A DNA stretch of 64,000 bases. Source: Streptomyces sp. NBC_00654. Lineage in GTDB: Bacteria; Actinomycetota; Actinomycetes; Streptomycetales; Streptomycetaceae. Where the stretch lies: assembly GCF_026341775.1 (NCBI RefSeq), contig NZ_JAPEOB010000001.1, forward strand, positions 3,906,001 through 3,970,000, given 5' to 3'. Below the pieces are notes generated by a model. It was given only the letters and a program-made list of their open reading frames with translations, did not search any database and was not told the origin of the DNA. Positions 1,815 to 44,767 of this stretch are shown one piece after another (position 1 is the stretch's first letter; each line of letters begins with the position of its first letter). Both the position numbers and the translations under genes were made by a program.

Positions 1815-1829
1815 AGCAGGGTGAGGGAC

Positions 1830-2768: not shown

Positions 2769-2796
2769 CCACCGAGGTGGAGGCCTGGGGACATGG

Positions 2797-2847: not shown

Positions 2848-2871
2848 GCGGTGCTGTACGTCAGGATCGCC

Positions 2872-2906: not shown

Positions 2907-2931
2907 TTGGCCTGTGCGCCGGCGAGGGCGC

Positions 2932-26520: not shown

Positions 26521-28092
26521 ATGTCGCTTGTCAGCAGGCGTGCCGGGCGGGGGGCCGTCGCGTTCGTCCTCGCGGCGGTCCTGTCCGCGACGGTGCAGGG
26601 AGCGGCGGCCGCGCCGCGGGCACCGGCCGCGGAAGGATGCGCGGGAGCACCGTCCGACTTCAACGGCGACGGCATCCGCGACGCCGTCATCACCGACCCG
26701 GAGGCCACCGTCTCGGGCAAGGCGCGTGCCGGTCTCGTGCACATCGTCTACGGCGGCGGAAAGGGCACCGCCGAACTGTCGCAGGACTCCGCGGGCGTCT
26801 CCGACAGTGCCGAGACCGGCGACCAGTTCGGCTTCTCCTTCGCCGTGTACGACGCCAACCTCGACGGCTGCAGCGACATCGCCGTCGGCATCCCGTTCGA
26901 GGACATCAACCTGGCCGACTCGACGGTCAAGGACGCCGGGCTCGTCCAGCTGGTCTACGGCTCGACGGCGGGCATGGCCGCCGGGACGCTCGGCACCTAC
27001 GGCTTCCGCCAGGGCTCCGACGGAAAGCTCGGCGGCGGCTACGAGGCCGAGGACTGGGTCGGCTACGCCGTCGCCGCCGGGAAGTCCGCGACCGGCATCC
27101 CGTTCCTGGTCATCGGCGCCCCCGGTGAGGACGGTGGGGAAGGGGCCGACATGGGCATGTTCCACTACGTCTACGGCGTCAACTACGACGTCGCGCACGT
27201 CGCCCAGGACTCCACCGGCGTCTGGGAGGACCCCGAGCCGAACGACCGCTTCGGCGCGACGATCGCCGCCACCGACCGGTACTTCGTCGTCGGCGCGCCC
27301 GGCGAGTCCCTGGTCAACACCTCCGGAAAGAACGTCGAGTTCGCAGGTGGTGTCATCGCGTTCCGCTCCTCGGTCAACACCAACGGCATCCCGGCTCCGG
27401 TGTTCGGCATGGGACAGGGGCGCAGCGGCACCGCGGACACCGCCGCGCAGGCCGGGGACCAGTACGGCTCCGCACTGGCGATGGCCCCCTACCGGCCGGC
27501 CGGTGCCGCGACGACCACCGATGCCGTGCTCGCCGTGGGCGTGCCCGGCGAGGACCTGTCCACCACCGTGGACGCCGGCGCCGTGCACACGTACCACATG
27601 AAGGCGGACGGCACCGTCCAGCTCCTCAACTGGGTCGACCAGAACCTGCCCGATGTCGCGGGCGAGGCGGAGGCCGGTGACTTCTTCGGGCAGCGGATCG
27701 CCGCCGTGAACACCGCGACGAACGTCGTCAGCACCGCGGCGACCATGCGCTTCGCCGTGGGCGTACCGGGCGAGGAGTCCACCGAGGAGTACCCGGAAGA
27801 GGGCGGAGTACAGCTCTTCTCGCTGCTCGGCGCACCCGGCGACGCCGACAGCTGGATCTCGCCCGGAAACGGCATCCCCGCCGACCGAGCCCCCCGCATG
27901 CTCACCGGCATGGGGCTCGGCGCCGCCCCGGACTCGCTCTACGTGGGCGTTCCCTACGGGCCGGCCGGGTCGCGGGCCGTGCACGCCTTCGCCTGGAACA
28001 CGCCGGACGGCGGTGCGCCCGCACAGAGCTGGAAGCCCGGTGAAGGCGGAATCCCGCCGGAGAACGTCGCATTCGGGACCTCCGCGCGCTGA
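26521..28092 (+). CDS. secreted FG-GAP (integrin alpha-like beta-propeller) repeat protein, copy 1
   Basis: A 523-residue exported protein. The signal peptide ends around AAAAPRA. About seven FG-GAP blades follow, marked by repeats such as SDFNGDGIRDAVITDPEA, GLVHIVYGGG, GDQFGFSFAVYDANLDGCSDIAVGIPFED and DRFGATIAATDRYFVVGAPGE. DxNGDGxxD loops would bind calcium, as in integrin alpha-chains. The ATG at 26521 has GGGAGAGAG in front and is followed at once by a typical signal peptide. The next gene is a paralogue of exactly the same length. Likely an extracellular adhesive or scaffold protein; the binding partner is unknown. Confidence 0.9.
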   Translation: MSLVSRRAGRGAVAFVLAAVLSATVQGAAAAPRAPAAEGCAGAPSDFNGDGIRDAVITDPEATVSGKARAGLVHIVYGGGKGTAELSQDSAGVSDSAETGDQFGFSFAVYDANLDGCSDIAVGIPFEDINLADSTVKDAGLVQLVYGSTAGMAAGTLGTYGFRQGSDGKLGGGYEAEDWVGYAVAAGKSATGIPFLVIGAPGEDGGEGADMGMFHYVYGVNYDVAHVAQDSTGVWEDPEPNDRFGATIAATDRYFVVGAPGESLVNTSGKNVEFAGGVIAFRSSVNTNGIPAPVFGMGQGRSGTADTAAQAGDQYGSALAMAPYRPAGAATTTDAVLAVGVPGEDLSTTVDAGAVHTYHMKADGTVQLLNWVDQNLPDVAGEAEAGDFFGQRIAAVNTATNVVSTAATMRFAVGVPGEESTEEYPEEGGVQLFSLLGAPGDADSWISPGNGIPADRAPRMLTGMGLGAAPDSLYVGVPYGPAGSRAVHAFAWNTPDGGAPAQSWKPGEGGIPPENVAFGTSAR

Positions 28093-28126
28093 TCGCGCGG
28101 GAAGGATCAGGAGAGGAACCACTTCA

Positions 28127-29698
28127 GTGAGAACACCTGTGCGCGCGCCGCGGCGCGCGTCACGAAGACCCGCAGCCCTGTGGGTGAGCACCGTCACGCT
28201 GGCCGCCCTGGCCCTCGGGTTCGGCCCCGGAGCGCCCCTCGCGCCGCCCGCCGCGGCACTGGCCGCCGGCTGCTCGGGCGTGGACTCCGACTTCAACGGC
28301 GACGGCATCGCGGACACGGCGATCGCCGACCCCGAGGCCACGGTCAACGGCGTGCCGCGGGCGGGTCTGGTCCACATCGTCTACGGCGGCGGCAAGGGAA
28401 ACCTGGCCCTGTCGCAGGAAACCGCCGGAATCCCGGGCGCCGCCGAGCCCAACGACCAGTACGGCTTCGCCCTGGCCGCCTACGACGCCAACTCCGACGG
28501 ATGCGCCGATCTGGCCGTCGGGATCCCGTACGAGGACCTGGACGTCGTTCCCGACGCGGGCCTGGTCCAGATCGTCTACGGCTCCCCGGCCGGACTCGGC
28601 GGGGGCAAAGCCGTCAAGGAGCACCACCAGGGCCCGACCGCCTCCCTCGGCGGCGGCACGGAGGACGGCGACTGGACCGGCTACGCGCTGGCCGGCGGCA
28701 GGACCGCCGCGGGCACCTCGTACCTGCTGATCGGCGCTCCCGGTGAGGCCATCGGCACGGTCGAGGACATGGGCGTCTTCTACTACATCTCCGCCGACGC
28801 GGCGACCGCGGTCGGCATCAACCAGGGCACCACCACCGCCGGCGCGGTTCCCGGCGACCCCGAACTGGACGACCGCTTCGGCGCGTCGTTCGCGGCCACC
28901 CCCACGCACTTCGCCGTCGGCACACCGGGGGAGGCTATCGGTACGGTGCCGTTCGCCGGAGGGGTCGCGGTCTTCAGCCACACCCTCGTCTCCGGACTGC
29001 CCAAACCGCTGGTCGGGCTCGCGCAGGACCAGGACGCGATCCTGGGTGCCGAGGAGGCGGGAGACGCCTTCGGTACCGCGCTGGCCATGGTCCCCCACCG
29101 GCCGCCCGGCGCCACGTCGACCACGGAGTCCCTCCTGGCGGTGGGCATTCCGGGCGAGGACCTGGCCACCACGGTCGACGCGGGGGCCGTCCAGGTCTTC
29201 CGTATCACCGCCTCCGGGAGCTTCACCGAGGTCAACTGGATCGACCAGAACTCGGCCAACGCCGAGGAGGAGACCGAACCGGGCGACTTCTTCGGACAGC
29301 GTCTCGCCGCGGTCAACACCTCGCCCAACACGGTGGCTTCGGCCACCACCACCCGGCTGGCGGTCGGCGTGCCGGGGGAGGAGTCCTCCGAGGAACACCA
29401 GGAGAAGGGCGGGGTGCAGATCTTCCCGCTCGTCGGCGCCCCGGGTGCCTCCGACGCCTGGATCGACCCGGGCTGGGGCATCCCCGGAGAGCCCGCGCCC
29501 CGGCAGCTCGCCGGAATGAGTCTCGCGGCGACCCCGTCCGCGCTGTACGTGGGCATGCCCTACGGCCCCGCGGCGGGCCACGCAGTGCACGCCTTCGACT
29601 GGAACGTGGCGTCCGGCGGCGGCTCCGCGAAGACCTTCAGGCCCGGCGAGAACGGCATTCCCGCAGGTGACGTCGCTTTCGGAGCGGTGGCACGCTGA
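28127..29698 (+). CDS. secreted FG-GAP (integrin alpha-like beta-propeller) repeat protein, copy 2
   Basis: A 523-residue paralogue of the preceding protein with the same order of blades: SDFNGDGIADTAIADPEA, GLVHIVYGGG, NDQYGFALAAYDANSDGCADLAVGIPYED, DRFGASFAATPTHFAVGTPGE, GDFFGQRLAAVN. The exported N-terminus starts at GTG 28127, preceded by GGAGAGG. It ends in TGATG overlapping the LamG-protein start by one base, so the two are coupled. The duplicated pair probably forms a larger surface structure or binds the same partner in two ways. Confidence 0.9.
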   Translation: MRTPVRAPRRASRRPAALWVSTVTLAALALGFGPGAPLAPPAAALAAGCSGVDSDFNGDGIADTAIADPEATVNGVPRAGLVHIVYGGGKGNLALSQETAGIPGAAEPNDQYGFALAAYDANSDGCADLAVGIPYEDLDVVPDAGLVQIVYGSPAGLGGGKAVKEHHQGPTASLGGGTEDGDWTGYALAGGRTAAGTSYLLIGAPGEAIGTVEDMGVFYYISADAATAVGINQGTTTAGAVPGDPELDDRFGASFAATPTHFAVGTPGEAIGTVPFAGGVAVFSHTLVSGLPKPLVGLAQDQDAILGAEEAGDAFGTALAMVPHRPPGATSTTESLLAVGIPGEDLATTVDAGAVQVFRITASGSFTEVNWIDQNSANAEEETEPGDFFGQRLAAVNTSPNTVASATTTRLAVGVPGEESSEEHQEKGGVQIFPLVGAPGASDAWIDPGWGIPGEPAPRQLAGMSLAATPSALYVGMPYGPAAGHAVHAFDWNVASGGGSAKTFRPGENGIPAGDVAFGAVAR

Positions 29699-32600
29699 TG
29701 AACGACATGGAGAGCGGACGCATGTCCAGAAGAACAGCACGCGGCCCCGTGCTGCGTGGCGCCCTCGCCGCGCTGGTGGCGGGAGCCGTCCTGACCGGTG
29801 GCTTCAACGTGCTGCCGGAAGCCCCCGCCGAGCGCGGGCGGCCCGAACGGGAGACCGTCGCTTCCGATAAACCCGTACAGACCGAACAACAGGCGCTCGC
29901 CGCCGCGAAGAAGAGCGGCAAGGAGGTCGAGGTCCTCGGTATGCGCGGCGCGCGCCGGGAGATCTACGCCGAGCCCGACGGAACCTTCACCGCCCGCGAG
30001 TACACCGACCCCATCCGCACCTTCCAGGACGGCCGCTGGGTCGACATCGACACGACCCTGGTGCGGCGCGCGGACGGCACCGTGGTGCCCAGGGCCACGG
30101 CCGTGGCCCTGTCCTTCTCCGGCGGTGAGGCCGGCAAGCCGTTCGTCACGATGCGGCAGGCGGGCCGTGAGCTCTCCCTGACCTGGCCGTACGGGAAGCT
30201 GCCCGCGCCGGAACTCGACGGCGGGAGCGCCACGTACAAGGACGCGCTGCCCGGCGTCGATCTCACCGTACGGGCGGAGTCGGACGGCTTCGGACATCTC
30301 CTGGTCGTCAGGACACCGGAGGCCGCCGCCGATCCGAAGCTCGCCAAGCTGGACCTCGGGCTGAACACCCACGGTCTCAAGGTCGCCGAGGACGCGTCCG
30401 GCGCTCTCAAGGCCGAGGACGCCGCCGTCGGCGGCACGGTCTTCGAGTCCGGGAAGCCGGTCATGTGGGACTCGGCCGCCGTCAAGGAGGCCGCGGCGAG
30501 GAAGCGGGGGCCGCAGGCCGTCTCCAAGGCGCTCGCCCAGGCCTCCGCGGCCGGGACCCCGGCCCCTTCCGTGGCGCCCGAGCCCGCGCTCGACGGCCCC
30601 GGCGGCGGCGGCCGGACCGCGCCGCTGGGCATGGAGGTGGGCGGGGGCAAGCTGTCGCTCGTCCCCGACCGGAAGCTGCTCACCTCGAAGGACACCGTCT
30701 TCCCGGTCGTCATCGACCCGATCCAGCGCACCACTTCACGTACGGCGTGGACCGGTGTGATGTCGGGCATGCCGAGCGAGCAGGACTGGAAGTACTCCGA
30801 CAGCGCCGGTGTCGGCAAGTGCCCCACCGACTACAACCCGGTGTCCTGCAACGGGGTCGGCGTACGCCGGCTGCTGTTCACCATGCCGATGTCGTTCTAC
30901 AAGGGGAAGCAGATCCTCGGCGCGACGTTCTCCGCCCGGGTCGCCCACATCTACAGCGCCTCCCCGACCGCGGAGCCGATCCGGCTCTACCGCATCGGCG
31001 GCAAGAACTACAGCATCACCTCCTCCAGCAACTGGTCCAACACCTCGGACGACTGGACCGATCACATCGGCACCGTCGACAAGGCCATCTCGCCGACGAG
31101 CTGTTCGAGCCAGGCCAACCTGCACTTCGAGGGCGGCTCCTCCGGGGAGCTCACCACGGAGGTGAGGACCGCGGCCACCGAGGGCTGGTCCTCGATGACG
31201 CTGGGCCTGCGGGCCACCGACGAGAGCCGGTTCCCCGAGTGGAAGCGGATCTGCGGCAACGCGTACCTGTCGATCAGCTACAACAACCTGCCGCGCAAGA
31301 TCACCACGCTGTCCCAGAACCCGGGCGGCGTGTGCACCTCGGGCGCCGGGCGCCCGTACGCCGAGGTCCCGCCCCAGCTCCAGGCCGTGGCGAGCGACTC
31401 GGACCACGGCAACGGCCAGACCGACAAGGTCAAGGTCGAGTTCAAGGTGGACTGGACGGACCCGGTCAGCAAGGAGGCGAAGTCGTACACCTACCTCACC
31501 CCCTCCTGGCTCGCACCGACCTCCAGCACCAAATTCACCCACACCGTGAAGTCCACGATTCCGCAGAACACCGTCATCTACTGGAGCGCCCGCGCCTACG
31601 ACGGGGACGGCTACGGCCCATGGAGCTATGACGGCACCACGGTCCGCTGCGAGTTCATGTACGACAGGACGCTGCCGGGCAAGCCGAACGTGCTCTCCAA
31701 GGAGTACCCGTCCGACACCGTCTACCACGACGGCGTCGGCACCTACGGCTCCTTCACCTTCTCGCCGAACCCGAACGACTCGGTGCCGGACACCGACGTC
31801 GTGAAGTACCGGTACGCGTTCGACGGCACGGCCACCCCGGCCACCACCGTCAACGCCTCCAAGCCCGGCGGGCCCGCGACCGTGACCTGGATGCCGACCC
31901 GCGCCGGCCGGCACTGGGTGGACGTCATCGCGGTCGACAAGGCGGAGAACCCCAGTACCAAGGCGCACTACGAGTTCCTCGTGACCGACGGCGCGCCCGT
32001 CGCCGCTCAGTGGAACCTCGCCGACGAGCCCGGCAGCAACCAGGCCCACGACGAGACGGGAGTGTTCTCCGCGGACACCGGCAGCGGTGTCACCTTCGGT
32101 GTCGAGGGTCCCGGCGGCAAGGTCGACGCGGCGGCCCGCTTCGACGGCACCGCCGACTCCTACGCCGACGTCAACGAGACGGTGCTGGACTCCTCGGAGA
32201 GCTTCAGCGTCAGCGCCTGGGTCCGCCCGACCGCCCTGGACCGCGACATGGCCGTCGTCAGCCAGGACGGAACCGGCGAGCCCGGCTTCACCCTGGGCTA
32301 CGACCACACCGCGGGTACCTGGGCGTTCTCCGTACCCGTCACCGATGTCGACTCGCTCGGCAAGTGGAAGGCCGTCTCCACCGGCATCACCGTGGTCAAG
32401 GACCAGTGGGTGCTGCTGACCGGCGTGTACGACGCGGCCAGGTCGGAACTCAGGCTGTACATCAACAAGGACTCCAAGGGCGTCTCGCAGCGCCGTTCCG
32501 TGTGGAAGTCGTACGGCCCGCTCCAGATCGGCCGCACCACGGCCAAGAGCGGCTACCGGGACCACTTCACCGGTGACGTCGCCGAGGTCCGGGTCTTCGA

Positions 32601-33363
32601 CCGGGTGCTGCCCGCGGCACAGGTCGCCGAGCTGATGACCGTGCGGCCCAACCGCCAGGGCTACTGGCAGCTCGACGCGGAGGCGGACCGCAAGGCCGCG
32701 GAGACGGGCGGCGGCCAGCCGCTCGCCCTCGGGGGCGACGCGAAGATCATCCTCGCGCCGGCCGACCCGCTGTCGCCCGACCCCTTCCCCATGGTCGGGG
32801 CCGGCCACCTGCTCCTGGACGGCGCCGGGGACTACGCGTCCACCGCCACCTCCCCGGTCACCGGAGCGTCGAGCTTCACGGTGACGGCACGCACCCAGCT
32901 CACCACACTGGACCCGGAGAAGGCCCAGACGGTGCTGTCGCTGCCCGGCAGCGCGGCGAACCGCCTCGCCGTCCGCTACCGGCCCGGACCCGACGCCGAG
33001 ACCCCCTCCATGTGGGAACTCGCCGTCGCCACCAGTGACTCGGCGACAGCCGCCCAGAAGGTCTTCCACGACGACCAGGAACTGCCGGACACCGACATGG
33101 CCGGTCAGCACCTGGCCGTCGTCTACGATGCCTTCGCCAACGAGATCCGGCTGTACGTGAACGGCATGCTCGCCGATGTCGCGCACGGCGCCGACGACAC
33201 CCTGTGGGGTGCCACCGGCGGTCTCCAGGTGGGCCGTTCGGCCCTCGGCGGCGGCAGCGAGTACTTCGCGGGCGCGATCGACGAGGTCCGTGTCTACAGC
33301 GGCGCGGCCGACAGGACCGCGATCCAGCAGCTCGCCAATCCGATGGCCCTGCCCGACATGTGA
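29698..33363 (+). CDS. secreted LamG-domain (concanavalin-like) protein with DNRLRE-like region
   Basis: A 1221-residue exported protein. It begins with a signal peptide (ALAALVAGAVLTGGFNVLPEA). A globular region follows that includes YTDPIRTFQDGRWVDIDTTL and a VFPVVIDP segment. A jelly-roll (DNRLRE-like) module lies at about residues 345-525 (VRRLLFTMPM, ILGATFSARV). Fibronectin-like stretches follow. Two LamG domains, about 761-985 and 985-1215, have AARFDGTADSYADV, FSVSAWVRPT, FTGDVAEVRVFDRVL, and then YFAGAIDEVRVYSGA. This layout is common beside RHS proteins in Streptomyces. It is likely a cell-surface carbohydrate-binding partner of the RHS protein. The reading frame overlaps the FG-GAP copy 2 stop by one base. 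Confidence 0.88.
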   Translation: MNDMESGRMSRRTARGPVLRGALAALVAGAVLTGGFNVLPEAPAERGRPERETVASDKPVQTEQQALAAAKKSGKEVEVLGMRGARREIYAEPDGTFTAREYTDPIRTFQDGRWVDIDTTLVRRADGTVVPRATAVALSFSGGEAGKPFVTMRQAGRELSLTWPYGKLPAPELDGGSATYKDALPGVDLTVRAESDGFGHLLVVRTPEAAADPKLAKLDLGLNTHGLKVAEDASGALKAEDAAVGGTVFESGKPVMWDSAAVKEAAARKRGPQAVSKALAQASAAGTPAPSVAPEPALDGPGGGGRTAPLGMEVGGGKLSLVPDRKLLTSKDTVFPVVIDPIQRTTSRTAWTGVMSGMPSEQDWKYSDSAGVGKCPTDYNPVSCNGVGVRRLLFTMPMSFYKGKQILGATFSARVAHIYSASPTAEPIRLYRIGGKNYSITSSSNWSNTSDDWTDHIGTVDKAISPTSCSSQANLHFEGGSSGELTTEVRTAATEGWSSMTLGLRATDESRFPEWKRICGNAYLSISYNNLPRKITTLSQNPGGVCTSGAGRPYAEVPPQLQAVASDSDHGNGQTDKVKVEFKVDWTDPVSKEAKSYTYLTPSWLAPTSSTKFTHTVKSTIPQNTVIYWSARAYDGDGYGPWSYDGTTVRCEFMYDRTLPGKPNVLSKEYPSDTVYHDGVGTYGSFTFSPNPNDSVPDTDVVKYRYAFDGTATPATTVNASKPGGPATVTWMPTRAGRHWVDVIAVDKAENPSTKAHYEFLVTDGAPVAAQWNLADEPGSNQAHDETGVFSADTGSGVTFGVEGPGGKVDAAARFDGTADSYADVNETVLDSSESFSVSAWVRPTALDRDMAVVSQDGTGEPGFTLGYDHTAGTWAFSVPVTDVDSLGKWKAVSTGITVVKDQWVLLTGVYDAARSELRLYINKDSKGVSQRRSVWKSYGPLQIGRTTAKSGYRDHFTGDVAEVRVFDRVLPAAQVAELMTVRPNRQGYWQLDAEADRKAAETGGGQPLALGGDAKIILAPADPLSPDPFPMVGAGHLLLDGAGDYASTATSPVTGASSFTVTARTQLTTLDPEKAQTVLSLPGSAANRLAVRYRPGPDAETPSMWELAVATSDSATAAQKVFHDDQELPDTDMAGQHLAVVYDAFANEIRLYVNGMLADVAHGADDTLWGATGGLQVGRSALGGGSEYFAGAIDEVRVYSGAADRTAIQQLANPMALPDM

Positions 33364-33371
33364 TCCGCACC

Positions 33372-33410
33372 CCGGGTGTGCCGGTCCCGGTCCGGGACCG
33401 GCACACCCGG
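33372..33410 (+). terminator. strong hairpin terminator between LamG and RHS genes
   Basis: A perfect 17-bp stem (CCGGGTGTGCCGGTCCC at 33372-33388, complement at 33394-33410) with a 5-base loop, 9 bases after the LamG stop. It separates transcription of the FG-GAP/LamG genes from the RHS gene. Confidence 0.9.
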
Positions 33411-33452
33411 CTGCATTTCCCACCCTTCCTCTCCTACGTGTGGAGACACGTG

Positions 33453-36400
33453 ATGACATTCAGAGGCCGGCTGTTGAGCCGGCGCATGCCCGGACGGTTG
33501 CTCGCGGCAACCGCCCTGGGTGTGGTGATCGCCCTGACCGGAAGCACGGTGCACGCCGTTCCGGCCGGGGAAAAGGGCCGTGACGGACGTCGCGTCCAGG
33601 ACTTCGGCGACCCCGTGGAGGGCGCCCGTGCGAAGGGCGTCCCGCGCCCCGTCGACAAGGCCGCGAAGTCCGCCGTCACCCGGCTCGACAAGGCGTCGTG
33701 GCCCACCGGGGGCAGCGCCGCGATCGATGTCGCGGTCAGGAATCCGGCGGAGGTGAAGGTCGGCGGTCTGCCGGTCGCCGTCGAGGCGGCCGGTACGGGT
33801 ACGGGCCGCTCGGCGAAGGCCGCCGCCCCGGCCACGGTCGATGTCGATGTCCTGCCCGCCGGGCGGGCGGAGTTGCTCGGCGCGGGCGCCGTCCTGAGGG
33901 TGAGCCGCGGCGACGACGCCGAGACGGACGCGAAGGTCCGCCTGTCGGTGGACTACTCGGCCTTCGAGGAGGCCTACGGAGGCTCGTACGGAGCCCGGCT
34001 GCGCCTGGTCGAGCTGCCCGCCTGTGCGGCGGTGGCGAAGCCGGGCAGCAAGGCCTGCCCCGGTACGGGCAAGCCGCTGGCCACGGAGAACGACGCCCGG
34101 ACCAACACGGCCACGGCCGAGGTGACCGCGAGCGCGGCGGAAGCGGGCGGACCCTCGGCGATGGCCGTCCGGGCCGGGACCCTCATCGCCCTGACCGCGG
34201 GCAACTCGTCCTCGCAGGGCACCTATGGAGCCACCCCCCTGGCACCGTCCGCGAGCTGGAGCGTGGCGCAGTCGACCGGTGGCTTCTCCTGGTCCTATCC
34301 GCTGCGCGTCGTCCCGACGCCCGGCGGACTCACCCCCACCGTGGGCCTCTCCTACACCTCGCAGTCGGTCGACGGCCGTACGTCGGCCACGAACAACCAG
34401 GGCTCCTGGATCGGCGAGGGCTTCGGCTACGAGGCGGACTACATCGAGCGCAGCTACAAGTCCTGCGTCGACGACGGCCACGACCTCTCCGCCGAGCAGT
34501 GCTGGGCCTTCGACAACGCCACGGTGATGCTGAAGGGGAACGCCTCCCAGATCATCAAGGACGACGACACCGGGCAGTGGCGGCTCGCCAACTCCGACGG
34601 TTCGAAGGTCGAGAAGCTCACCGGCGCCACGAACGGCGACAACGACGGCGAGCACTGGAAGATCACCACCGCGGACGGTACGGAGTACTACTTCGGGCTG
34701 AACCGGCTGCCGGGCTGGGCGACGGGCAACGAGGAGACCGCCTCGACCTGGACCACCCCCGTCTTCGGCGACGACTCCGGTGAACCCTGCTACAACGCCA
34801 CCTTCGCCAACGCCTCGTGCAAGCAGGCATGGCGCTGGAACCTCGACTACGTCAAGGACCGGCACGGCAATGTGATGTCCCACTTCTACGAGAAGGAGGT
34901 CAACCACTACGCCCTGAACGCCAAGACGGACGTCAACGGCACCGCGTACGACCGGGGCGGCTACCTGAAGCGGATCGACTACGGCCAGCGTGACGGACAG
35001 GTGTACGCGGCCAAGGCCCCGGCCCGTGTCACCTTCGAGGCGGCCGAGCGCTGCCTGCCCGGTGACACGTTCGACTGCGCGGAGTCCAAGCGGACGAAGG
35101 CCAACGCGGCGCACTGGCCCGACACCCCGGTGGACCAGGAGTGCAAGGCGTCCACGAAGTGCGGCTCGGACCAGATAGCGGCCTCCTTCTTCACCACCAA
35201 GCGGCTGAAGTCCGTCGTCACCCAGATGCGCAAGGACGCCACGTCCTACCAGGACGTGGACGCCTGGTCGTTCACCCATCTCTTCCTCGACAACGGTGAC
35301 GACTCCAAGGCGCTGTGGCTGTCCACGATCGACCACCAGGGCCGTGTCGGGACCGCCGCCGACCTGCCCTCCCTCGATCTGATCGGCACACAGCTCGCCA
35401 ACCGGGTGGACGCCACGGGCGACAACCTCGCCCCGTTCCACCGCTACCGGCTGGCCACCGTCGTCAGCGAGACCGGCGCCCAGCTGGACATCAACTTCGC
35501 CCCCACCGACTGCTCGGCCTCCGCCCTGCCCAAGCCGGGCGAGTCCACCAAGCGCTGCTATCCGGTCAAGTGGGCGGCACCCGGACACATCGAGCCGATC
35601 GACGACTGGTTCCACAAGTACGTCGTCGCCGAGATCGTCGAGACCGACCGCACCGGCGGCGGCGACAAGATGGTCACCCGGTACGACTACGAGGGCCCGG
35701 CCGGCTGGCGGCACTCGAAGCCGGACGGCATCACCCCGGAGAAGTTCCTCACCTGGGGCGAGTGGCAGGGATACGGCAAGGTCAAGGTCACCAGCGGCGG
35801 CGAGGACACACAGCGGACCCGGATCGACTACACCTACTTCCAGGGCCTGGACGGTGACCGGAAGCCGGGCGGCGGTACCCGCTCGGCAACGGTGACCGAC
35901 TCCACCGGAACGAGCCGCACGGACGACGAGGACTACACCGGCTTCGAACTCGAAGCGCTCTCGTACAACAACGGCAGGGTCTCCGCCAAGGTGATCAACA
36001 CGCCGTGGAAGCACCACACCGCCACCCAGACCAAGACCTGGGCCACGACCCACGCGACCCTGGTCAAGCCGGAGATCACCCACGGCTTCACGGCGCTGGC
36101 CTCCGGCGGCTGGCGCGAGACGAGGACACGCACCAGCTACGACACCCCCACCGGCACCGGGAGGGTCACCCAGGTCGAGGACTTCGGCCACATCGTCCCC
36201 GACACCGCGAGCGCCGCCGACAAGGCCGCGGCCGCGAAGGACGACACCTGCACGCGTACCTGGTACGCCGACAACACGACGGGAGGCGCGAACCTCCTCA
36301 GCCTGATCAAGCGGGTCGAGAAGGTGTCCGTGAACTGCGGCGCCACTCCCCAGCGCGCCACGCAGGTCGTGCTCGACGACCGGACGCTCTACGACAACCT

Positions 36401-39400
36401 GGCCCACGGCGCCGCTCCCACGCGCGGTGTCGTCAGCTCCACCGAACGTCTGGCCTCGCACAACGGCACGACGGCCTCGTACCAGGAGACGAGCAAGAAC
36501 ACCTACGACGCGCTCGGCCGGGTCAAGACCACCACCACCCCGGGCACCGGCAGGACCACCACCACCTACACCGAGACCAACGGCCTGACGACCTCGGTCA
36601 AGGGCACCAATCAGCTCAACCACTCGGTGACCACCGACTACGCCCCCGCATGGGGCCAGAGCCGCGGCCAGACCGACCCGAACGGCAAGCGCACCGACGT
36701 GGCCTTCGACGGGCTGGGGCGGGTGACCTCGGTCTGGCTCCAGGACCGGGTCAAGGCGACGCAGACCCCCAGTTCCAAGCACTCCTACGTGGTGCGCAAG
36801 GACAAGCCGCTCGCCATCAAGTCGGAGAAGATCGACAACAGCGGTGGCTACGCCGTCGAGTACACCCTCTACGACAGCCTGATGCGGGCGCGGCAGAAGC
36901 AGGCGGACGGTCCCGGCGGCACCCGGCTCATGGCGGACACCTTCTACGACAGCCGGGGCAACCTCAAGACGTCGTACGAGACCTACACCGCGGCGGGCGC
37001 CCCGTCCGACGAACTGCTCGTGGTGCGCAACGGCGAGGCCGGCGCGCAGACCCACTACGAGTACGACGACATGGGCCGCACCACGGCCGAGGTCTTCGCG
37101 GTCTCCGGCGTCGAGCAGTGGCGCACCGGCACGCGGTACGACGGCGACCGGGAACACGTCACGGCGCCCAGCGGCGGGCTGGCCACCACATCGGTCAGGG
37201 ACGCGAACGGCAGGCTGACCGAGCTGCGGCAGTACCCCGGCAACGTCCCGGTCCTGTCCGGTCCGCCCACGTACTCCTGGACGTCGTACGGGTACACGCC
37301 CGCCGGCGGGCTGGAGAAGGTGACGGACTCGGCGGGCAACACCTGGTCCGCCGAGTACGACCAGCGGGGCCGCAAGACCACCTCGGTGGACCCCGACGCG
37401 GGCACCACCACGATGGCCTACGACGAGGCCGACCGGATGATCTCGACGACCCACACCGCCACCGCGGAGACGGTCTCGACGTCCTACGACGGCATCGGGC
37501 GGCCGACCATCACCTACGACGGCACCGTGACCGCGGGCAAGAAGCTCACGGAACAGCGGTACGACCGGGCCGGAATGCTCGGCCAGCCGTACGCCTCGCT
37601 GCGGTACACGAGCGCCACCGAGTACTTCGCCTCGGTCATCCAGAGCGCGGACGACTTCTACCGGCCCGTGAAGACCTCGTACGTGGTGCCCGCGGCGCAG
37701 GGCTCCCTCGCGGGCACGTACGACTTCACCTCCGTGTACAACCGTGACGGCACTCCGCAGAGCACGGGCCTGCCCGCCGCCGGCGGACTCGCGGCCGAGG
37801 TCCTGTCGTACGGCTACGACGAGATGCAGCGGCCGGTCACGATGAGCGGCACCTCCACCTACGTCACCGAATCGGTCTGGTCGCCGACCAGCCAGCTGCT
37901 CCAGATGCAGCTGAGCACGGGCGGCAAGAAGACCCTTCAGACGTTCGACTACGAGACCGGCACCCAGCGGCTCACCCGTTCCGTCGTGGACGTGCTGGGG
38001 TCGGCCACCGGCCCGGCGAAGGAGGCCAACTACTCCTACGACCAGGCGGGCAACGTCCTGTCGGTCTCGGACGTCGCCGTTCCGGCCCAGCCCGATGTGC
38101 AGTGCTTCCGCTACGACGGCAACCGCCGGCTCTCGGAGGTATGGACCCCCGGGGCGACCGCCGCCGGCGCGAGCGGCTCCGGAACCACCGGAACGAAGGC
38201 ACCGGTCGACGGCTCCACGCCGTCCGCCTGTGCGGCCGATCCCGGCAGTGGCCCGCTGGGCGGCCCCTCCCCGTACTGGAAGTCGTTCACGACCGACAGC
38301 ATGGGCAACCGCACGCAGGACATCACCCACGACATCGGGCTCGACCCGGCCGAGGACATCACCAGGACCTTCACCTACGGCGCCGACGGCGCGGGCCCGC
38401 ACGCGGTGACCAAGGTGGTCGAGGACACCCCGACCGGAAACCACGAGACCCGCTACGGCTATGACGACGCGGGCCGGATGGACACGCGTACCGACGGCGG
38501 CAACACGCACACCCTGGGCTGGGACAGCAACGGCAGGCTGCGGTCGTTCGTCTCGCCGGACGACCCGACGACGGCGGGCACCGACGAGTCGTCGGAGACG
38601 AGCTACCTCTACGACGCGGACGGCTCCCGGGTCCAGCGCAAGGACGCCGACGGGACGACGGTCTACCTGCCCGGCATGGAACTGCACCTGCCCACGGGCT
38701 CGACGAAGCCCGAGGCGACGCGCTACTACACCTACGCCGACCAGACGGTCGCCGTACGGACGAGCGACAACAAGGTCTCGTTCCTCGCCTCCGACCATCA
38801 CGACACCGGTCAGCTGGCGATCGACGCCGTGACCGGCGCGGTGACGGTCAGAAGATCCGACCCGTACGGCAATCCGCGGGGCGACCAGCCCGCGGACGGT
38901 GTCTGGCCGGGGGAGAAGGGCTTCGTCGGCGGCACGATCGACGAGTCGACCGGGCTGACCAATGTGGGAGCCCGTGAATACGATCCGCTGCTGGGCAAGT
39001 TCATCTCGCCCGACCCGGTGATCGACTTCCTCAACTCGCAGCAGATGAACGCGTACGCGTATGCCAACAACTCGCCCGTGACCCTCTCCGACCCCAGCGG
39101 ACTGCTCTTCTGCATGGGTCTGATGTGCGGTGCGCTGGGCGACGACTTCGGCAACGACGACAAGGAGGTGGAAGAGGCCCAGCAGGGCGTCGACCAGGCC
39201 AAGTCCAACGCCAAGTCGGCGGACAGCGTCGTGACGCAGGTGGCCGACGAGATCATCTACCAGATCAAGGACATCGTCGGCATCAACGCGCTCCAGGACT
39301 GCGCGTCCAACCCGACGGTCGGCAAGTGCCTCAAGGCCGCCGGTGAGATCGCCATGAACTTCGTCGGCGGGGCCGTGCTCAAGGGCATCTTCAAGGCCAA

Positions 39401-40349
39401 GCGGATCGCCAAGGCGCTCGACCTCGTCCCCGACCTCTACCGGGCGATCAACAAGATCAAGAAGGCGGAGGACAAGCTCGAGAAGGCCGAGGAGAAGCTG
39501 GACAAGGCCAAGGACAAGGCAGCCGCGAGAAAGAAGAAAAAGAAGAAGGACGACGACGATGACGAGTGCGAGACGCACAGCTTCCTGCCGAGTACGACCG
39601 TGCTCCTGGCCGACGGCGGCAGGAAGCGCATCGAGGACGTCCGGATCGGCGACCGGGTAACGACGACCGACCCGGCGACGGGCCGCGAGACCACCCGGGC
39701 CGTGGTCGGCACCATCGTCACGGAGTCGGACAAGGAGTTCGTCGACCTCACGGTGAGCACCGGGGACGGAAGCCGTACCTCGGCTCTCATCTCGACGGTG
39801 ACCCACCCGTTCTGGGTCGCCTCCGAGGGCGAGTGGATCGACGCGGGTGAACTGCGGCCGGGCATGGAGCTCAGCACACCGTCGGACGAGAAGGTCACGC
39901 TCGTCGCCAGCCGCTCCTTCGAGCAGCGGCAGCGGACGCACGACCTGACGATCGACGGCATCCACGCCTACTACGTGAACGCCGGCGAGACTCCCCTGCT
40001 CGTCCACAACTGCCTGGTCACCGTCTACCACTACACCAACAAGTCCGGGTACAACGGCATCCGGGCGGGCAACCCCTACAAGATCAAGCCCGGCGACTCG
40101 AAGAACGGTGCGGGCCCGTTCTTCACCACCCGCAGTCCGGCCGACCTGACCGCCCCCGGCGCGTTCAAGAAGCTGGGAATCACCAACGAGAAGTCGCAGT
40201 ACGTGATGGAGCTCCGGGTGCCGCAGAGCGCTCTGGTACCGCTGCGCGGGGACCGGGGTAAATTCATCTTCGCGATTCCCGCGGGCGTGACGGTCGCGCG
40301 GGCCAGGGTCAGATACTTCGGACCCACCACAGGATGGAAGGCACCATGA
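33453..40349 (+). CDS. RHS/YD-repeat polymorphic toxin with HINT domain and HYD1-type ADP-ribosyltransferase tip
   Basis: A 2298-residue secreted RHS protein. The order is: signal peptide (LLAATALGVVIALTGSTVHA); a beta-rich N-region; YD/RHS repeats from about residue 1010 (YDALGRV, YDDMGRT, YDQRGRKTTSVDPDAG, YDEADRM); the RHS core end (YGNPRGD, then GFVGGTIDESTGLTNVGAREYDPLLGKF, then SPVTLSDPSG) near 1800-1885; a helical region and a Lys/Asp-rich linker (AEDKLEKAEEKLDKA, then KKKKKKDDDDDE); and a PT-HINT domain from about 2040 to HNC near 2187. The HINT domain has CETHSFLPSTTVLLADGG, VTHPFWV and TPLLVHNC. The last 111 residues (VTVYHYTNKSGYNGIRAG, then GPFFTTRSP, QYVMELRVP) are HYD1-like. The ATG at 33453 has GGAGA six bases upstream. 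Confidence 0.88.
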   Translation: MTFRGRLLSRRMPGRLLAATALGVVIALTGSTVHAVPAGEKGRDGRRVQDFGDPVEGARAKGVPRPVDKAAKSAVTRLDKASWPTGGSAAIDVAVRNPAEVKVGGLPVAVEAAGTGTGRSAKAAAPATVDVDVLPAGRAELLGAGAVLRVSRGDDAETDAKVRLSVDYSAFEEAYGGSYGARLRLVELPACAAVAKPGSKACPGTGKPLATENDARTNTATAEVTASAAEAGGPSAMAVRAGTLIALTAGNSSSQGTYGATPLAPSASWSVAQSTGGFSWSYPLRVVPTPGGLTPTVGLSYTSQSVDGRTSATNNQGSWIGEGFGYEADYIERSYKSCVDDGHDLSAEQCWAFDNATVMLKGNASQIIKDDDTGQWRLANSDGSKVEKLTGATNGDNDGEHWKITTADGTEYYFGLNRLPGWATGNEETASTWTTPVFGDDSGEPCYNATFANASCKQAWRWNLDYVKDRHGNVMSHFYEKEVNHYALNAKTDVNGTAYDRGGYLKRIDYGQRDGQVYAAKAPARVTFEAAERCLPGDTFDCAESKRTKANAAHWPDTPVDQECKASTKCGSDQIAASFFTTKRLKSVVTQMRKDATSYQDVDAWSFTHLFLDNGDDSKALWLSTIDHQGRVGTAADLPSLDLIGTQLANRVDATGDNLAPFHRYRLATVVSETGAQLDINFAPTDCSASALPKPGESTKRCYPVKWAAPGHIEPIDDWFHKYVVAEIVETDRTGGGDKMVTRYDYEGPAGWRHSKPDGITPEKFLTWGEWQGYGKVKVTSGGEDTQRTRIDYTYFQGLDGDRKPGGGTRSATVTDSTGTSRTDDEDYTGFELEALSYNNGRVSAKVINTPWKHHTATQTKTWATTHATLVKPEITHGFTALASGGWRETRTRTSYDTPTGTGRVTQVEDFGHIVPDTASAADKAAAAKDDTCTRTWYADNTTGGANLLSLIKRVEKVSVNCGATPQRATQVVLDDRTLYDNLAHGAAPTRGVVSSTERLASHNGTTASYQETSKNTYDALGRVKTTTTPGTGRTTTTYTETNGLTTSVKGTNQLNHSVTTDYAPAWGQSRGQTDPNGKRTDVAFDGLGRVTSVWLQDRVKATQTPSSKHSYVVRKDKPLAIKSEKIDNSGGYAVEYTLYDSLMRARQKQADGPGGTRLMADTFYDSRGNLKTSYETYTAAGAPSDELLVVRNGEAGAQTHYEYDDMGRTTAEVFAVSGVEQWRTGTRYDGDREHVTAPSGGLATTSVRDANGRLTELRQYPGNVPVLSGPPTYSWTSYGYTPAGGLEKVTDSAGNTWSAEYDQRGRKTTSVDPDAGTTTMAYDEADRMISTTHTATAETVSTSYDGIGRPTITYDGTVTAGKKLTEQRYDRAGMLGQPYASLRYTSATEYFASVIQSADDFYRPVKTSYVVPAAQGSLAGTYDFTSVYNRDGTPQSTGLPAAGGLAAEVLSYGYDEMQRPVTMSGTSTYVTESVWSPTSQLLQMQLSTGGKKTLQTFDYETGTQRLTRSVVDVLGSATGPAKEANYSYDQAGNVLSVSDVAVPAQPDVQCFRYDGNRRLSEVWTPGATAAGASGSGTTGTKAPVDGSTPSACAADPGSGPLGGPSPYWKSFTTDSMGNRTQDITHDIGLDPAEDITRTFTYGADGAGPHAVTKVVEDTPTGNHETRYGYDDAGRMDTRTDGGNTHTLGWDSNGRLRSFVSPDDPTTAGTDESSETSYLYDADGSRVQRKDADGTTVYLPGMELHLPTGSTKPEATRYYTYADQTVAVRTSDNKVSFLASDHHDTGQLAIDAVTGAVTVRRSDPYGNPRGDQPADGVWPGEKGFVGGTIDESTGLTNVGAREYDPLLGKFISPDPVIDFLNSQQMNAYAYANNSPVTLSDPSGLLFCMGLMCGALGDDFGNDDKEVEEAQQGVDQAKSNAKSADSVVTQVADEIIYQIKDIVGINALQDCASNPTVGKCLKAAGEIAMNFVGGAVLKGIFKAKRIAKALDLVPDLYRAINKIKKAEDKLEKAEEKLDKAKDKAAARKKKKKKDDDDDECETHSFLPSTTVLLADGGRKRIEDVRIGDRVTTTDPATGRETTRAVVGTIVTESDKEFVDLTVSTGDGSRTSALISTVTHPFWVASEGEWIDAGELRPGMELSTPSDEKVTLVASRSFEQRQRTHDLTIDGIHAYYVNAGETPLLVHNCLVTVYHYTNKSGYNGIRAGNPYKIKPGDSKNGAGPFFTTRSPADLTAPGAFKKLGITNEKSQYVMELRVPQSALVPLRGDRGKFIFAIPAGVTVARARVRYFGPTTGWKAP

Positions 40350-40837
40350 TCACAGGCAGCGACAGCGTGTTCGTCGCGTGCGGCCCGGTGTCCGGGGCCG
40401 TCGAGCGCTTCCTCGCCGACTGGTCGCGCAGATGGCCGCGGCTGCGGGTGTCCGTGGGCGACGGGGAGGAGTTCTCCGCCTGGGAGCCGGGGGCGATCAC
40501 GCTGCCCGAGACATCCGGCCAGGTGCTCGTCGCCCGCGACGAGGACATGGTGGCGGGCTGGGACGACTCCGGCTATGTGCTCGATCCGCACCAGGAGGGT
40601 CCTTTCTCCCTGGCGTACGAGCCGGCCGGCTGGACGTCCCTGAACGTGCTGGCGCTGGATGATCCCTACACCCGTACGGGATTCGGGTACGAGCCGTACG
40701 AGATCGGGCTCGTCGGCACGGGCCTCCAGCTGATCACGCTGGTGGCACCGGAGGACGGGGCCTTCCGGCAGGCCGTGACACACGGTCTGCTGGCGGCCCT
40801 CGGCGGGCCCGCGCAGACGGGCTCCCGGGCGCTCTGA
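40346..40837 (+). CDS. candidate immunity protein for the RHS toxin
   Basis: A 163-residue acidic cytoplasmic protein overlapping the toxin stop as ATGA. It begins MITGSDSVFVACGPVSGAVE and has no signal peptide. I do not recognise a characterised family in it. In polymorphic toxin loci the gene directly after the toxin tip is usually its specific immunity protein; that is the main basis for the call. It should bind the HYD1-like tip domain and block its active site. A strong terminator follows at 40868. The nearby GGAAGG ribosome site favours 40346 over the ATG at 40334. Confidence 0.65.
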   Translation: MITGSDSVFVACGPVSGAVERFLADWSRRWPRLRVSVGDGEEFSAWEPGAITLPETSGQVLVARDEDMVAGWDDSGYVLDPHQEGPFSLAYEPAGWTSLNVLALDDPYTRTGFGYEPYEIGLVGTGLQLITLVAPEDGAFRQAVTHGLLAALGGPAQTGSRAL

Positions 40838-40867
40838 GCCCGGCCGCCCGACGGCGCTCCACCCCGG

Positions 40868-40901
40868 CGGGGCCCGGTCCGTACCCACGGACCGGGCCCC
40901 G
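40868..40901 (+). terminator. strong hairpin terminator after the immunity gene
   Basis: A perfect 15-bp stem (CGGGGCCCGGTCCGT at 40868-40882, complement at 40887-40901) with a 4-base ACCC loop. It separates the toxin operon from the convergent Lrp gene. Confidence 0.9.
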
Positions 40902-40971
40902 TCGTACGCGCGGAGTGCCGTGGCGCACCGGTGACCGGGGCCGCGTACGGGACGGCCGGCCCGGCCGGGGC

Positions 40972-41505
40972 TCAGTCGCGCTGGTCGAGTCCCGCGCCGA
41001 GCGGCGGCCGGGGGGCGTCGAGCAGCGAGGTGTCCACCTCTCCGACGCCCCAGCCGTACGCCAGTTTGTGGACCTCCAGCACGAAGAAGGAGTCCGTCGA
41101 GAGGAGTCCGTCGATCAACTGGAGCCGACGGTTCATCAGGTCGGTGAAGTGGTCGGTGTCCCGGCAGATCACCTCGGCCATCACGTCGTACGTGCCCGCC
41201 GTCATGATGACGTAGGAGGTCTCCGGCAGTTCCCGCAGCCGTCGGCAGACCTCCTGGGCGGTGCCCGGCCTGACCCGGATGCCGACCATCGCGAACCGGT
41301 CGAATCCGATGGTCAGCGGGTTGGCGATGCCGACGATCTGGAGGGTGCCGTTCTCCTCCATGCGCTGGACGCGGTAGCGCACGGAGGAGGCGGGGATGTC
41401 CAGTTCCTCGGCGATCTGGCTGTACGGGCGGCGGCCTTCCGCTTGAAGTGCGGCGATGATCCGGCGGTCGGTGTCGTCCAGGGGGCTGCCACCCAGCGTG
41501 CTCAT
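40972..41505 (-). CDS. Lrp/AsnC family transcriptional regulator
   Basis: A 177-residue Lrp-type regulator. The HTH (LDDTDRRIIAALQAEGRRPY, then IAEELDIPASSVRYRVQRM) is followed by the RAM ligand-binding domain (GTLQIVGIANPLTIGFDRFAMV, then VICRDTDHFTDLM). It is the last gene of the leftward operon with the oxidase and aldehyde dehydrogenase. It probably senses an amine-derived or amino-acid signal and regulates that operon and the divergent permease. Confidence 0.92.
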   Translation of the reverse strand: MSTLGGSPLDDTDRRIIAALQAEGRRPYSQIAEELDIPASSVRYRVQRMEENGTLQIVGIANPLTIGFDRFAMVGIRVRPGTAQEVCRRLRELPETSYVIMTAGTYDVMAEVICRDTDHFTDLMNRRLQLIDGLLSTDSFFVLEVHKLAYGWGVGEVDTSLLDAPRPPLGAGLDQRD

Positions 41506-41586
41506 GCTGTCGCTCCGGCTCTCATGTGCGGCCCGCGCGGTCCCGCGGGCCTGGATCTTCGGTCGTACGCGCCTATCCTGCCCGGC

Positions 41587-43017
41587 TCAGGAGTCGAAGC
41601 CGAGACCGAGCCGGTCCAGGGTGCGCAGCCACACGTTCCGGTGGCCGTTCGCGTCCTCGCGGGCCATCGACCACCGGGTGGCCTCGACCCCCAGATAGCG
41701 GACCGGTTCCGGGGGGAAGGGGACGGGGGGACGGCGGATCATCGCGGGCCGGAGCCGCTCCGTGCGCTCACCGGCGAGCAGATCCAGCATGACCCGGGCG
41801 CCGTAGCGGGTCGCCCCGACACCGAGACCGGTGAAGCCGAGGGCGTAGGCGATCCGGCCGTGCGCCGCGGTGCCGGCGAACATGCAGAAGCGGGTCGTGG
41901 AATCGATGACACCGCCCCAGGAATGGGAGAAACGGACATCGGCGAGGGCAGGGAAGGCCTCGGCGAACTGGGCGGCGAGCGTGTCGAAGGTGGCCGGGCG
42001 CTGGGTGAGGCGCTCCTCGACGCGGTTGCCGTAGTGGTAGACCGCGTCGTAGCCGCCGAAGAGGACGCGGTTGTCGTCGGTCTTGCGGAGGTAGTGGAAC
42101 TGGTTGCCCGCGTCGGTGATTCCGTGGTCGCCGCTCCAGCCGATGGAGGCGAGCTGTTCGTCGCTGAGCGGTTCGGTGGTCAGCGCGTAGTCGTAGACCG
42201 GGATCATGCTGAGCGAGAGGCGTTTGAGCAGGGGCCGGTAGACGTTGGTCGCGAGGGCGACCTGCCGGGCGCCGACGGCGCCGTACGGAGTGGCGAGCCG
42301 GACCCGTCCGGGCTGACGGCTGGTCAGAGCGGTGACCTCGGTGTTCTCCGCGATCCGGACTCCCAGATCGAGGCAGGCGGCGCGCAGCCCCCAGACGAGC
42401 CGTGCCGGGTCCAGGAGCGCGTAGTCGGGGGACCAGAGCCCCGCCGTCCACAGCGGGGAGTCGACGTAGTCCCGCAGTTCCTCACGGTCCAGCAGCTTCG
42501 TCCGTTCGCCGTAGCGGTGGGCGAGCGCGTGGGCGCCGTCGAGACCCTCGGCCTGCCAGGGGGTGGCGGCGACGGTGACCTTGCCGCTGCGGACGAATCC
42601 GCAGTCGATGCCGTGGGTGTCCAGGTCGCGCTGGAGGGCGTCGAAGTTCTCCATGCCCAGGCGGTGCAGCAGACCGGCCTCGGCGGGCCAGCGGTCGACG
42701 CCGTTGGCGAGGCCGTGGGTGATGCTCGGTGAGCAGAAACCGCCGTTGCGGCCGCTGGCGGCGTGGCCGCAGGTGCTCTGTTCCAGGACGAGGACGTCTC
42801 GTTCGGGGTGGGCGCGCTTGGCGAGCAGGGCGGTCCAGAGTCCGGTGTACCCACCGCCGACGACCGCGAGATCGCAGGTGGTGTCGGCGGTCAGCCGGGG
42901 CAGTGGCTCGGGATGCTCGGGCCGGTCGAGCCAGTAGGCGGCGGCCTTGGTGTCGCGCAGACGGCTGCGGTGGTGGTTGAGCGGCTGCCGCTCGGGGCGC
43001 GGGAGGGCGGTGGTCAT
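41587..43017 (-). CDS. FAD-dependent DAO-family oxidoreductase (PuuB/gamma-glutamylputrescine oxidase-like)
   Basis: A 476-residue flavoenzyme with the dinucleotide motif DLAVVGGGYTGLWTALLAKR, then LVLEQSTCGHAASGRNGGFCSP, which is typical of DAO-fold oxidases close to PuuB. The C-terminal WSMAREDANGHRN tail is intact. It oxidises an amine to imine/aldehyde, releasing ammonia or an amine and peroxide. It stands between an aldehyde dehydrogenase (to oxidise the aldehyde) and the Lrp regulator. No PuuA ligase is in the window, so the amine could also be a free amino acid or diamine. Confidence 0.85.
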   Translation of the reverse strand: MTTALPRPERQPLNHHRSRLRDTKAAAYWLDRPEHPEPLPRLTADTTCDLAVVGGGYTGLWTALLAKRAHPERDVLVLEQSTCGHAASGRNGGFCSPSITHGLANGVDRWPAEAGLLHRLGMENFDALQRDLDTHGIDCGFVRSGKVTVAATPWQAEGLDGAHALAHRYGERTKLLDREELRDYVDSPLWTAGLWSPDYALLDPARLVWGLRAACLDLGVRIAENTEVTALTSRQPGRVRLATPYGAVGARQVALATNVYRPLLKRLSLSMIPVYDYALTTEPLSDEQLASIGWSGDHGITDAGNQFHYLRKTDDNRVLFGGYDAVYHYGNRVEERLTQRPATFDTLAAQFAEAFPALADVRFSHSWGGVIDSTTRFCMFAGTAAHGRIAYALGFTGLGVGATRYGARVMLDLLAGERTERLRPAMIRRPPVPFPPEPVRYLGVEATRWSMAREDANGHRNVWLRTLDRLGLGFDS

Positions 43018-43110
43018 GGGGCGGGTACCTCGTTGCCGGCGGGGTGGGGGCGGCGCGGGCCCGCCTCCACCCGGGGGTGGGGCCGGCCCGCGCGGGCTGG
43101 ACGGCGAAGA

Positions 43111-43133
43111 CGTGCCGCGCGAGGTGCGGCACG
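43111..43133 (-). other. hairpin between aldehyde dehydrogenase and oxidase genes
   Basis: CGTGCCGC and its complement GCGGCACG form an 8-bp stem with a 7-base loop in the 184-base spacer. It may modulate read-through between the two genes. Confidence 0.45.
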
Positions 43134-43201
43134 TACGGCGGATGCGGCGGGGACGGCGCCGGGGTGTCCGGACGGACCGGACGGCGGGGCGCCGCCGGCG
43201 G

Positions 43202-44650: not shown

Positions 44651-44767
44651 GCGATGGCCTCTCAGTCCTGTGCGGGCCCGGGGGCGGGCCGGGATACGGG
44701 CTCGGGGCCGCTCGGCCCAGGGCCCGGTGCGAAGCGATGTCTGGAGACTCTCTGAGCAAACAAGAAC

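Follow-up and report, generated by a model that had tools for sequence, protein, structure and literature searches.

RHS polymorphic toxins that resemble the system described here have been reported from other bacteria. Rhs1 of Photorhabdus laumondii is cleaved at a DPLGL motif, and its tip, Tre23, ADP-ribosylates helix 44 of the 23S rRNA (PMC8636562). Tre23 is classed under the Pfam family PF15633, Tox-ART-HYD1 (PMC9990079), and Rhs tips such as Tre23 have been assigned to a HYD1 subclade, for which an H-Y-E motif is argued (PMC11125620). According to Zhang 2012 (PMC3482391), the HYD1 motif consists of H, [RK], [FY] and [DE], the contexts of the family include RHS, HINT and Actinobacteria, and Imm-My6CBD is the named immunity partner of Tox-ART-HYD1. 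Here we describe a locus of Streptomyces sp. NBC_00654, located in the 64,000 nucleotides between positions 3,906,001 and 3,970,000 of contig NZ_JAPEOB010000001.1 (the window, whose own numbering is used throughout). It comprises an RHS-HINT protein with a 111-residue tip, a 163-residue gene coupled to it, and upstream genes for two FG-GAP repeat proteins and a LamG protein. We consider it highly likely that the locus encodes a secreted polymorphic toxin and its immunity gene, set behind conserved secreted companion genes.

With the Tre23/Tri23 pair of Rhs1, the locus has in common the RHS shell, a DPxGL-type autocleavage motif and, on our reading, a HYD1-type tip with a cognate immunity gene. 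Whereas Rhs1 is delivered by a type VI secretion system with PAAR, VgrG and EagR, the window toxin has a signal peptide, a HINT domain and FG-GAP/LamG neighbours. Its RHS, HINT and actinobacterial contexts agree with those given for Tox-ART-HYD1 toxins by Zhang 2012, but its partner is without a Pfam or NCBIfam match, whereas the partner named there is Imm-My6CBD (PMC3482391).

Umbrella (Umb) toxins are likewise secreted Streptomyces polymorphic toxins with a HINT domain and separately encoded lectins, many of them β-propellers. The window HINT is similar in sequence to that of the umbrella toxins: its closest PDB chain by sequence, 8w20 (E 2.6e-29), is among the depositions of the umbrella-toxin paper. 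However, UmbC has ALF repeats and UmbA has trypsin-like and lectin domains, whereas the window encodes an RHS shell and, separately, FG-GAP and LamG proteins. Pfam scans of the window toxin and its neighbours found neither an ALF nor a trypsin domain, which places the locus outside the umbrella toxins. Bacterial teneurin-like proteins (TLPs) share the YD/RHS shell, a variable toxin (ADP-ribosyltransferases, ARTs, included) and downstream immunity genes, and the available text on them mentions no LamG/FG-GAP cassette. The likeness between TLPs and the window was compared at the shell end, which matches the TLP chain 9pt5 (E 3.4e-15, PDB sequence search). The toxin and its architecture are themselves of a known kind. 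A search by title and abstract, covering few subscription papers, found no description of FG-GAP/LamG genes with an RHS toxin, and as far as we found, the FG-GAP/FG-GAP/LamG/hairpin/RHS cassette is new.

The RHS-HINT toxin and its tip

A preliminary description, made from the letters of the window, had proposed a 2298-residue RHS protein with a HINT domain, a 111-residue tip and a set of short motifs, all of which were verified (Table 1). RHS/YD repeats (PF05593, 46.5 bits, cut-off 22) and the RHS-associated core precede the variable tip, both models scoring above cut-off, as does PT-HINT. The DPSGL motif that ends the core lies at the site of the aspartyl autocleavage motif of Rhs proteins. 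In the HINT domain, the motifs CETHSF (residues 2039-2044), TVTHPF (2115-2120) and LVHNC (2183-2187) locate the candidate catalytic residues at C2039, TxxH 2115-2118 and H2185-N2186, with C2187 as the +1 residue; we presume for these the usual HINT roles of N-terminal C, TxxH, HN and +1 residue. The segment also matches 2lwy, a bacterial intein-like domain (E 1.6e-8). A chance open reading frame (ORF) or a coincidence of motifs is ruled out by the domain scores, third-position GC bias and conservation.

RHS residues 1781-2187 matched 278 of 295 genomes of the genus. To follow the tip, we compared 30 loci, namely the window and 29 shell relatives (41-64% identical) from the best-listed matches. 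Beyond LVHN, their sequences fall into 23 groups without mutual similarity (BLASTP, E 1e-3), which bears out the expectation of tip-swapped homologues with a common RHS shell. Genome comparison shows an RHS-HINT shell that is kept while its tip is exchanged. Directly downstream of the toxin, 28 of the 30 loci have a candidate ORF under a permissive rule without chance control; these ORFs are mutually related only in L072, L084 and L094, where the tips are related as well. The RHS-HINT end segment matches nine places in the window genome (G000). Besides the locus described here, two of these lie on frames of 2275 and 2410 residues (C1:1396465 and C8:30785), so that the genome probably encodes several such toxins. 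In the shell relative L088, the motifs YFHYT and LFHGR mark a different tip, which by eye resembles another HYD-type ART.

The window tip, with YHYT at residues 2192-2195 and GPFFTT at 2221-2226, is a marginal match to Tox-ART-HYD1. Taken alone, it scores 24.8 bits against PF15633, compared with 24.4 bits in a six-frame search and 19.1 bits within the full-length protein. Each of the 15 aligned tips, the window's included, matched PF15633 (E up to 1, best 5.8e-9), and P0031, a homologue, has a precomputed PF15633 annotation. Related tips occur in 18 other proteins (59-99% identical) on several kinds of shell: some have HINT, others are shorter DUF6531 shells for which no HINT is listed, and still others have lectin-like modules fused to them. 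The last group includes a ricin-type lectin at 1793-1915 of P0027 and a LamG module at 1854-1971 of P0032, each inside an RHS protein. Across the alignment, the H of HYT is invariant and an aromatic F or Y is retained at the GPFF position; our guess is that these, together with the E of KSxYVxE, are residues of the HYD1 motif. Two points weigh against the HYD1 reading. The score of the window tip lies just under the curated cut-off of 25, and the E of KSxYVxE is replaced by Q in two of the 15 tips, so that the third catalytic residue is uncertain. A sequence and profile search of the tip against solved structures in the PDB returned chance-level matches only, and a tip search over 396 genomes of the phylum gave the window's own genome and one weak match. 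A tip relative, 44% identical, lies at 2415-2738 of NZ_CP055112.1, a plasmid of 8.8 kb whose record gives Shigella flexneri and a wastewater sample as its source.

The 163-residue gene and its co-occurrence with the tip

The ATGA coupling of the 163-residue gene to the toxin is as previously described: its ATG at 40346 overlaps the toxin TGA (40347-40349) in a junction of four bases. An alternative in-frame ATG at 40334 would extend the protein to 167 residues. No Pfam or NCBIfam model matched the protein, and 58 aligned members of its family gave best matches of E 0.015 and 0.012 in these libraries, to unrelated models; a profile search against solved structures yielded chance-level matches only. 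A further profile search collected 101 family proteins, and all those with an organism in the listed name are from Streptomyces. As far as Pfam and NCBIfam tell, the immunity family is new; no paper search was made for it. Its link to HYD1 tips on two kinds of shell is likewise new to the extent that we could establish.

For co-occurrence, the tip and immunity profile searches are taken as covering one set of 392 genomes of the genus, given that set size and genome handles coincide. The tip profile matched 12 genomes, nine of them at E below 1e-15 (strong tip), and the immunity profile matched 17 genomes at 18 places. All nine strong-tip genomes have a member of the small-gene family directly downstream of the toxin and on the same strand. 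The hypergeometric P for this overlap is 4e-14, a value that is too small because related species are treated as independent. Unlike the window with its Sec/HINT shell, the other eight strong-tip loci carry a shell of the type VII secretion system (T7SS) type. In a shell scan of L055-L061 (L062 lies outside it), the five full-length toxins (L055-L059) have a T7SS_signal domain, DUF6531 and RHS repeats with no HINT match, and the partial L060 and L061 have RHS repeats and the tip. PF15633 scores 17.4-21.3 bits in four of the five full-length toxins, while L057 has no match at E 0.01. Four typed immunity alleles from these T7SS-type loci are 23-30% identical to the window's, and three typed tips 37-44%. 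A contig scan with the immunity alignment returned one locus, L015 of Streptomyces sp. t39, in which the same tip and small-gene pair is found.

Because the small-gene family lies directly downstream in nine of nine strong-tip genomes and on two kinds of shell, the identification of the 163-residue gene as the immunity gene of the tip is strongly supported. The proposed combination of shell, HINT domain, toxin tip and adjacent immunity gene is upheld, as judged from the genomes compared. The tip and its antidote look like a cassette that is co-inherited across two kinds of shell. A small gene unrelated to the toxin is ruled out by co-occurrence and adjacency.

Some observations run counter to so simple a pairing. 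The weak tip matches in G316, G038 and G181 (E 1.7e-4 to 8.9e-4), which are excluded from the nine-of-nine count, have no immunity match. The preliminary description had also reasoned that the gene should not be widespread away from an RHS toxin, and this held only in part: eight of the 17 genomes (G079, G120, G213 twice, G238, G308, G344, G347 and G351) carry the small gene but no HYD1 tip, as do two Streptomyces plasmids (48% identity). In G120 and G238, the gene neighbours an RHS toxin of T7SS type whose tip is a different one (a CdiI_ImmP gene separates the two in G120), and the G079 copy lies among small genes that by eye are similar to those of G238. On our reading, the tip-less copies are immunity genes that are orphaned or stacked, although they may have some other role. 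Of 246 genomes searched with a single sequence, 10 had the small gene, including G170 (E 7e-4), which the later profile search did not match. At L049 and L052, orphan immunity genes have arrays of small genes nearby, in which two unnamed families recur (FVPFRxLPPWFK; PDLMCHEMPEYWAY or similar); these arrays are possibly polyimmunity islands.

Table 1. Features of the toxin locus, in window coordinates; interpretations of the features are predictions.
Feature	Position	Strand	Basis
FG-GAP repeat protein 1, signal-peptide-like start	26521..28092	+	PF01839, 39.3 bits (cut-off 22.1); upstream homologues in relatives
FG-GAP repeat protein 2, signal-peptide-like start	28127..29698	+	PF01839, 30.8 bits; resembles protein 1
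LamG protein (concanavalin-like, two stretches), 1221 residues, signal-peptide-like start	29698..33363	+	PF13385, 154 bits
18-pair hairpin in LamG-RHS spacer, terminator- or attenuator-like	33372..33410	+	Folding and covariation
Small hairpin with Shine-Dalgarno-like GGAG in loop, directly before RHS ATG	33435..33452	+	Pattern search
RHS polymorphic toxin, 2298 residues	33453..40349	+	ORF and domain matches
Signal peptide, residues 1-35, ending VHA	33453..33557	+	Assigned by eye; hydropathy 2.02
RHS-associated core, residues 1803-1884	38859..39104	+	TIGR03696, 63.2 bits (cut-off 32.5); ends in DPSGL (1880-1884)
HINT autoprocessing domain, residues 2039-2187	39567..40013	+	PF07591, 62.8 bits (cut-off 27.7); PDB chain matches
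Toxin tip, residues 2188-2298, Tox-ART-HYD1-like	40014..40346	+	Profile matches, related tips
Immunity gene (strongly supported), 163 residues	40346..40837	+	No Pfam/NCBIfam family, no obvious signal peptide
Strong terminator-like hairpin after immunity gene	40867..40902	+	40836-40930 folds at -71.7 kcal/mol, z -6.3

Upstream FG-GAP and LamG genes and their hairpins

FG-GAP repeats form a β-propeller and LamG has a lectin-like fold. Genes for such proteins precede the toxin and had been overlooked in the preliminary description, whose span began at 33453. We chose the ATG at 26521 as the start of the first FG-GAP gene; GGGAGAGAG precedes it. The stop of the second FG-GAP gene overlaps the LamG start (TGATG), whereas no overlap exists between LamG and RHS. 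The LamG protein, queried against solved structures, gave chance-level matches only.

We analysed the upstream regions of 20 of the 30 best-listed shell matches, the window apart (tips were read for 19 of them, the second G284 locus being the remaining one). A LamG gene lies upstream of RHS and on the same strand in 18 of the 20, being 60-89% identical to the window's in 13 and 38-53% in five, and 17 regions have a homologue of the second FG-GAP gene. Conversely, 18 of 20 LamG-family genes selected from a listing (33-77% identical) have a same-strand RHS start downstream; locus G062 is common to both sets. These counts show that, among the sequences compared, LamG and FG-GAP genes usually precede the Sec/HINT shell class. 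None of the eight T7SS-type loci with a related tip has a LamG match (three have little upstream DNA). The genes thus travel with the Sec/HINT shell class, not with the tip. The linkage has exceptions, which count against it. Two of the 20 shells lack a same-strand LamG gene (none in L108, on the other strand in L114), two of the 20 LamG genes lack an RHS start downstream (L146 and L163), and in t39 an FG-GAP gene (L015 1615-3030, in the stretch 1331-3084) stands between LamG and RHS, so that the gene order is not fixed.

The 92-nucleotide spacer between LamG and RHS has a folding energy of -53.1 kcal/mol (z -6.2). A hairpin was folded in 16 loci (the window, 14 of the 20 upstream regions and t39), of which 12 were aligned; the four that the alignment omits (L102, L105, L106 and t39) also fold with a hairpin after the LamG end, which in t39 is followed by the FG-GAP gene instead of RHS. 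In the 12 loci, a 17-pair helix has 93.1% of its cells paired, and at 14 of the 17 pairs both partners vary. In 500 shuffles, not one of five measures was reached, and sliding the partners by one column lowered pairing to 45-46%. Two findings temper this result. Strong hairpins are common in the GC-rich window (163 of 3195 folding windows at or below -50 kcal/mol), and for this reason the weight rests on covariation at a fixed place; furthermore, among more distant LamG-RHS spacers, the stem exceeds the longest of 60 mononucleotide shuffles in only seven of 18 (L148, L150, L154, L156, L157, L164 and L165). The palindromic leader with the GGAG loop is nearly identical in the window and eight of the 20 upstream regions, and may possibly exert translational control before the RHS start. 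An Rfam scan of 26000-41600 gave two matches only, both far below gathering scores. Most likely, transcription would be stopped in part at the hairpin behind LamG and completely at the one behind the immunity gene.

Beyond these genes, a gene for NPP1 (NLP-type necrosis-inducing protein; 24535-25446, plus strand, PF05630, 205.7 bits) precedes the FG-GAP genes by about 1 kb. On the other side, convergent neighbours at 40975-44755 on the minus strand encode an AsnC-type regulator, an FAD-dependent oxidoreductase and an aldehyde dehydrogenase. Past the toxin-immunity pair of t39, further stretches homologous to FG-GAP and to the RHS N-terminus (L015 10810-16102) possibly represent a second cassette.

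Alternative explanations and proposed mechanism

The toxin-immunity pair may be right while the tip is an NAD-using enzyme whose substrate is a protein or small molecule instead of RNA, or which does no more than deplete NAD. We regard this as a minority prospect, yet one with some substance: the RNA target is one reported for Tre23, the tip profile matches no solved structure beyond chance, and Zhang 2012 grouped HYD1 with protein-modifying toxins (PMC3482391). However, Tre23 belongs to the same Pfam family and modifies 23S rRNA (PMC9990079, PMC8636562), and the antagonist of YarT, a member of that HYD1 subclade, is a protein from the NADAR family, which removes ADP-ribose from guanine (PMC11125620), both of which favour RNA as the target. 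Whether the 163-residue protein belongs to a family of its own bears on the same pair. That it is a divergent member of Imm-My6CBD would fit the shared toxin partner and the α+β composition with conserved E, R, F and W given for that family (PMC3482391), since the 163-residue family retains several W and F. We find this improbable, given that Pfam and NCBIfam returned no Myosin-VI-type or Imm family for any of the 58 members (the presence there of an Imm-My6CBD model was not checked) and that the immunity profile found no relevant solved structure in the PDB.

The upstream genes could also be neighbours by ancestry, forming a separate surface-protein operon that is closed by an ordinary terminator and followed by an RHS gene with its own promoter. 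The terminator-like look of the post-LamG hairpin, in a window where strong hairpins are common, speaks for such a division, as does the gene overlap between the second FG-GAP gene and LamG that is missing between LamG and RHS. Nevertheless, we think it rather unlikely. The LamG-RHS linkage holds in both directions, despite changing tips; the upstream LamG is at least 60% identical in 13 of the 18 loci; a LamG domain is fused into P0032, whose tip is related to the window's; and none of the eight T7SS-type loci with a related tip, three of them short of upstream DNA, yielded a LamG match. We retain FG-GAP and LamG proteins as companions that may help to deliver the toxin shell.

On this preferred reading, the secreted shell is very probably the carrier of a small toxic enzyme, which it releases against rival bacteria. 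The RHS protein would be exported via its signal peptide, and the shell would enclose the tip, which would be freed by two autocleavages, one at the DPSGL motif and one by HINT at N2186/C2187. The tip would enter a competitor and ADP-ribosylate an essential target, most likely RNA, in the manner of its family member Tre23 on helix 44, and in the producer the cytoplasmic 163-residue protein would bind and block it. We infer encapsulation, both autocleavages, ADP-ribosylation and immunity by binding from knowledge of the families involved. The FG-GAP and LamG proteins would most likely bind the shell, the target surface or both. Docking of the RHS protein by them is a speculative idea, taken by analogy from the umbrella particles, which use lectins, β-propellers among them, encoded apart from the toxin. 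The post-LamG hairpin would probably limit transcription into the toxin gene and thereby leave the companions in excess.

Taken as a whole, we tentatively hypothesise, with more doubt than conviction, that Streptomyces may possess, in addition to the umbrella particles, a second secreted multi-protein toxin particle. It would consist of a HINT-RHS cocoon with an exchangeable tip together with one or two propeller-type FG-GAP proteins and a lectin-like LamG protein, which would attach it to target hyphae, and its dosage would be set by the conserved hairpin that separates the companion genes from the toxin gene. In the same scheme, the 163-residue family would be a dedicated HYD1 antidote that travels between the Sec-secreted and the type VII-delivered kinds of shell.

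The conserved FG-GAP/LamG set, which precedes shells with unrelated tips, provides named candidates for the targeting and assembly of signal-peptide-bearing RHS toxins in Gram-positive hyphal bacteria. The 163-residue family is a candidate antidote for HYD1-type ART tips and could serve as bait for solving the complex. One tip and antidote cassette on two kinds of shell, if true, would show the movement of a toxin between delivery systems.

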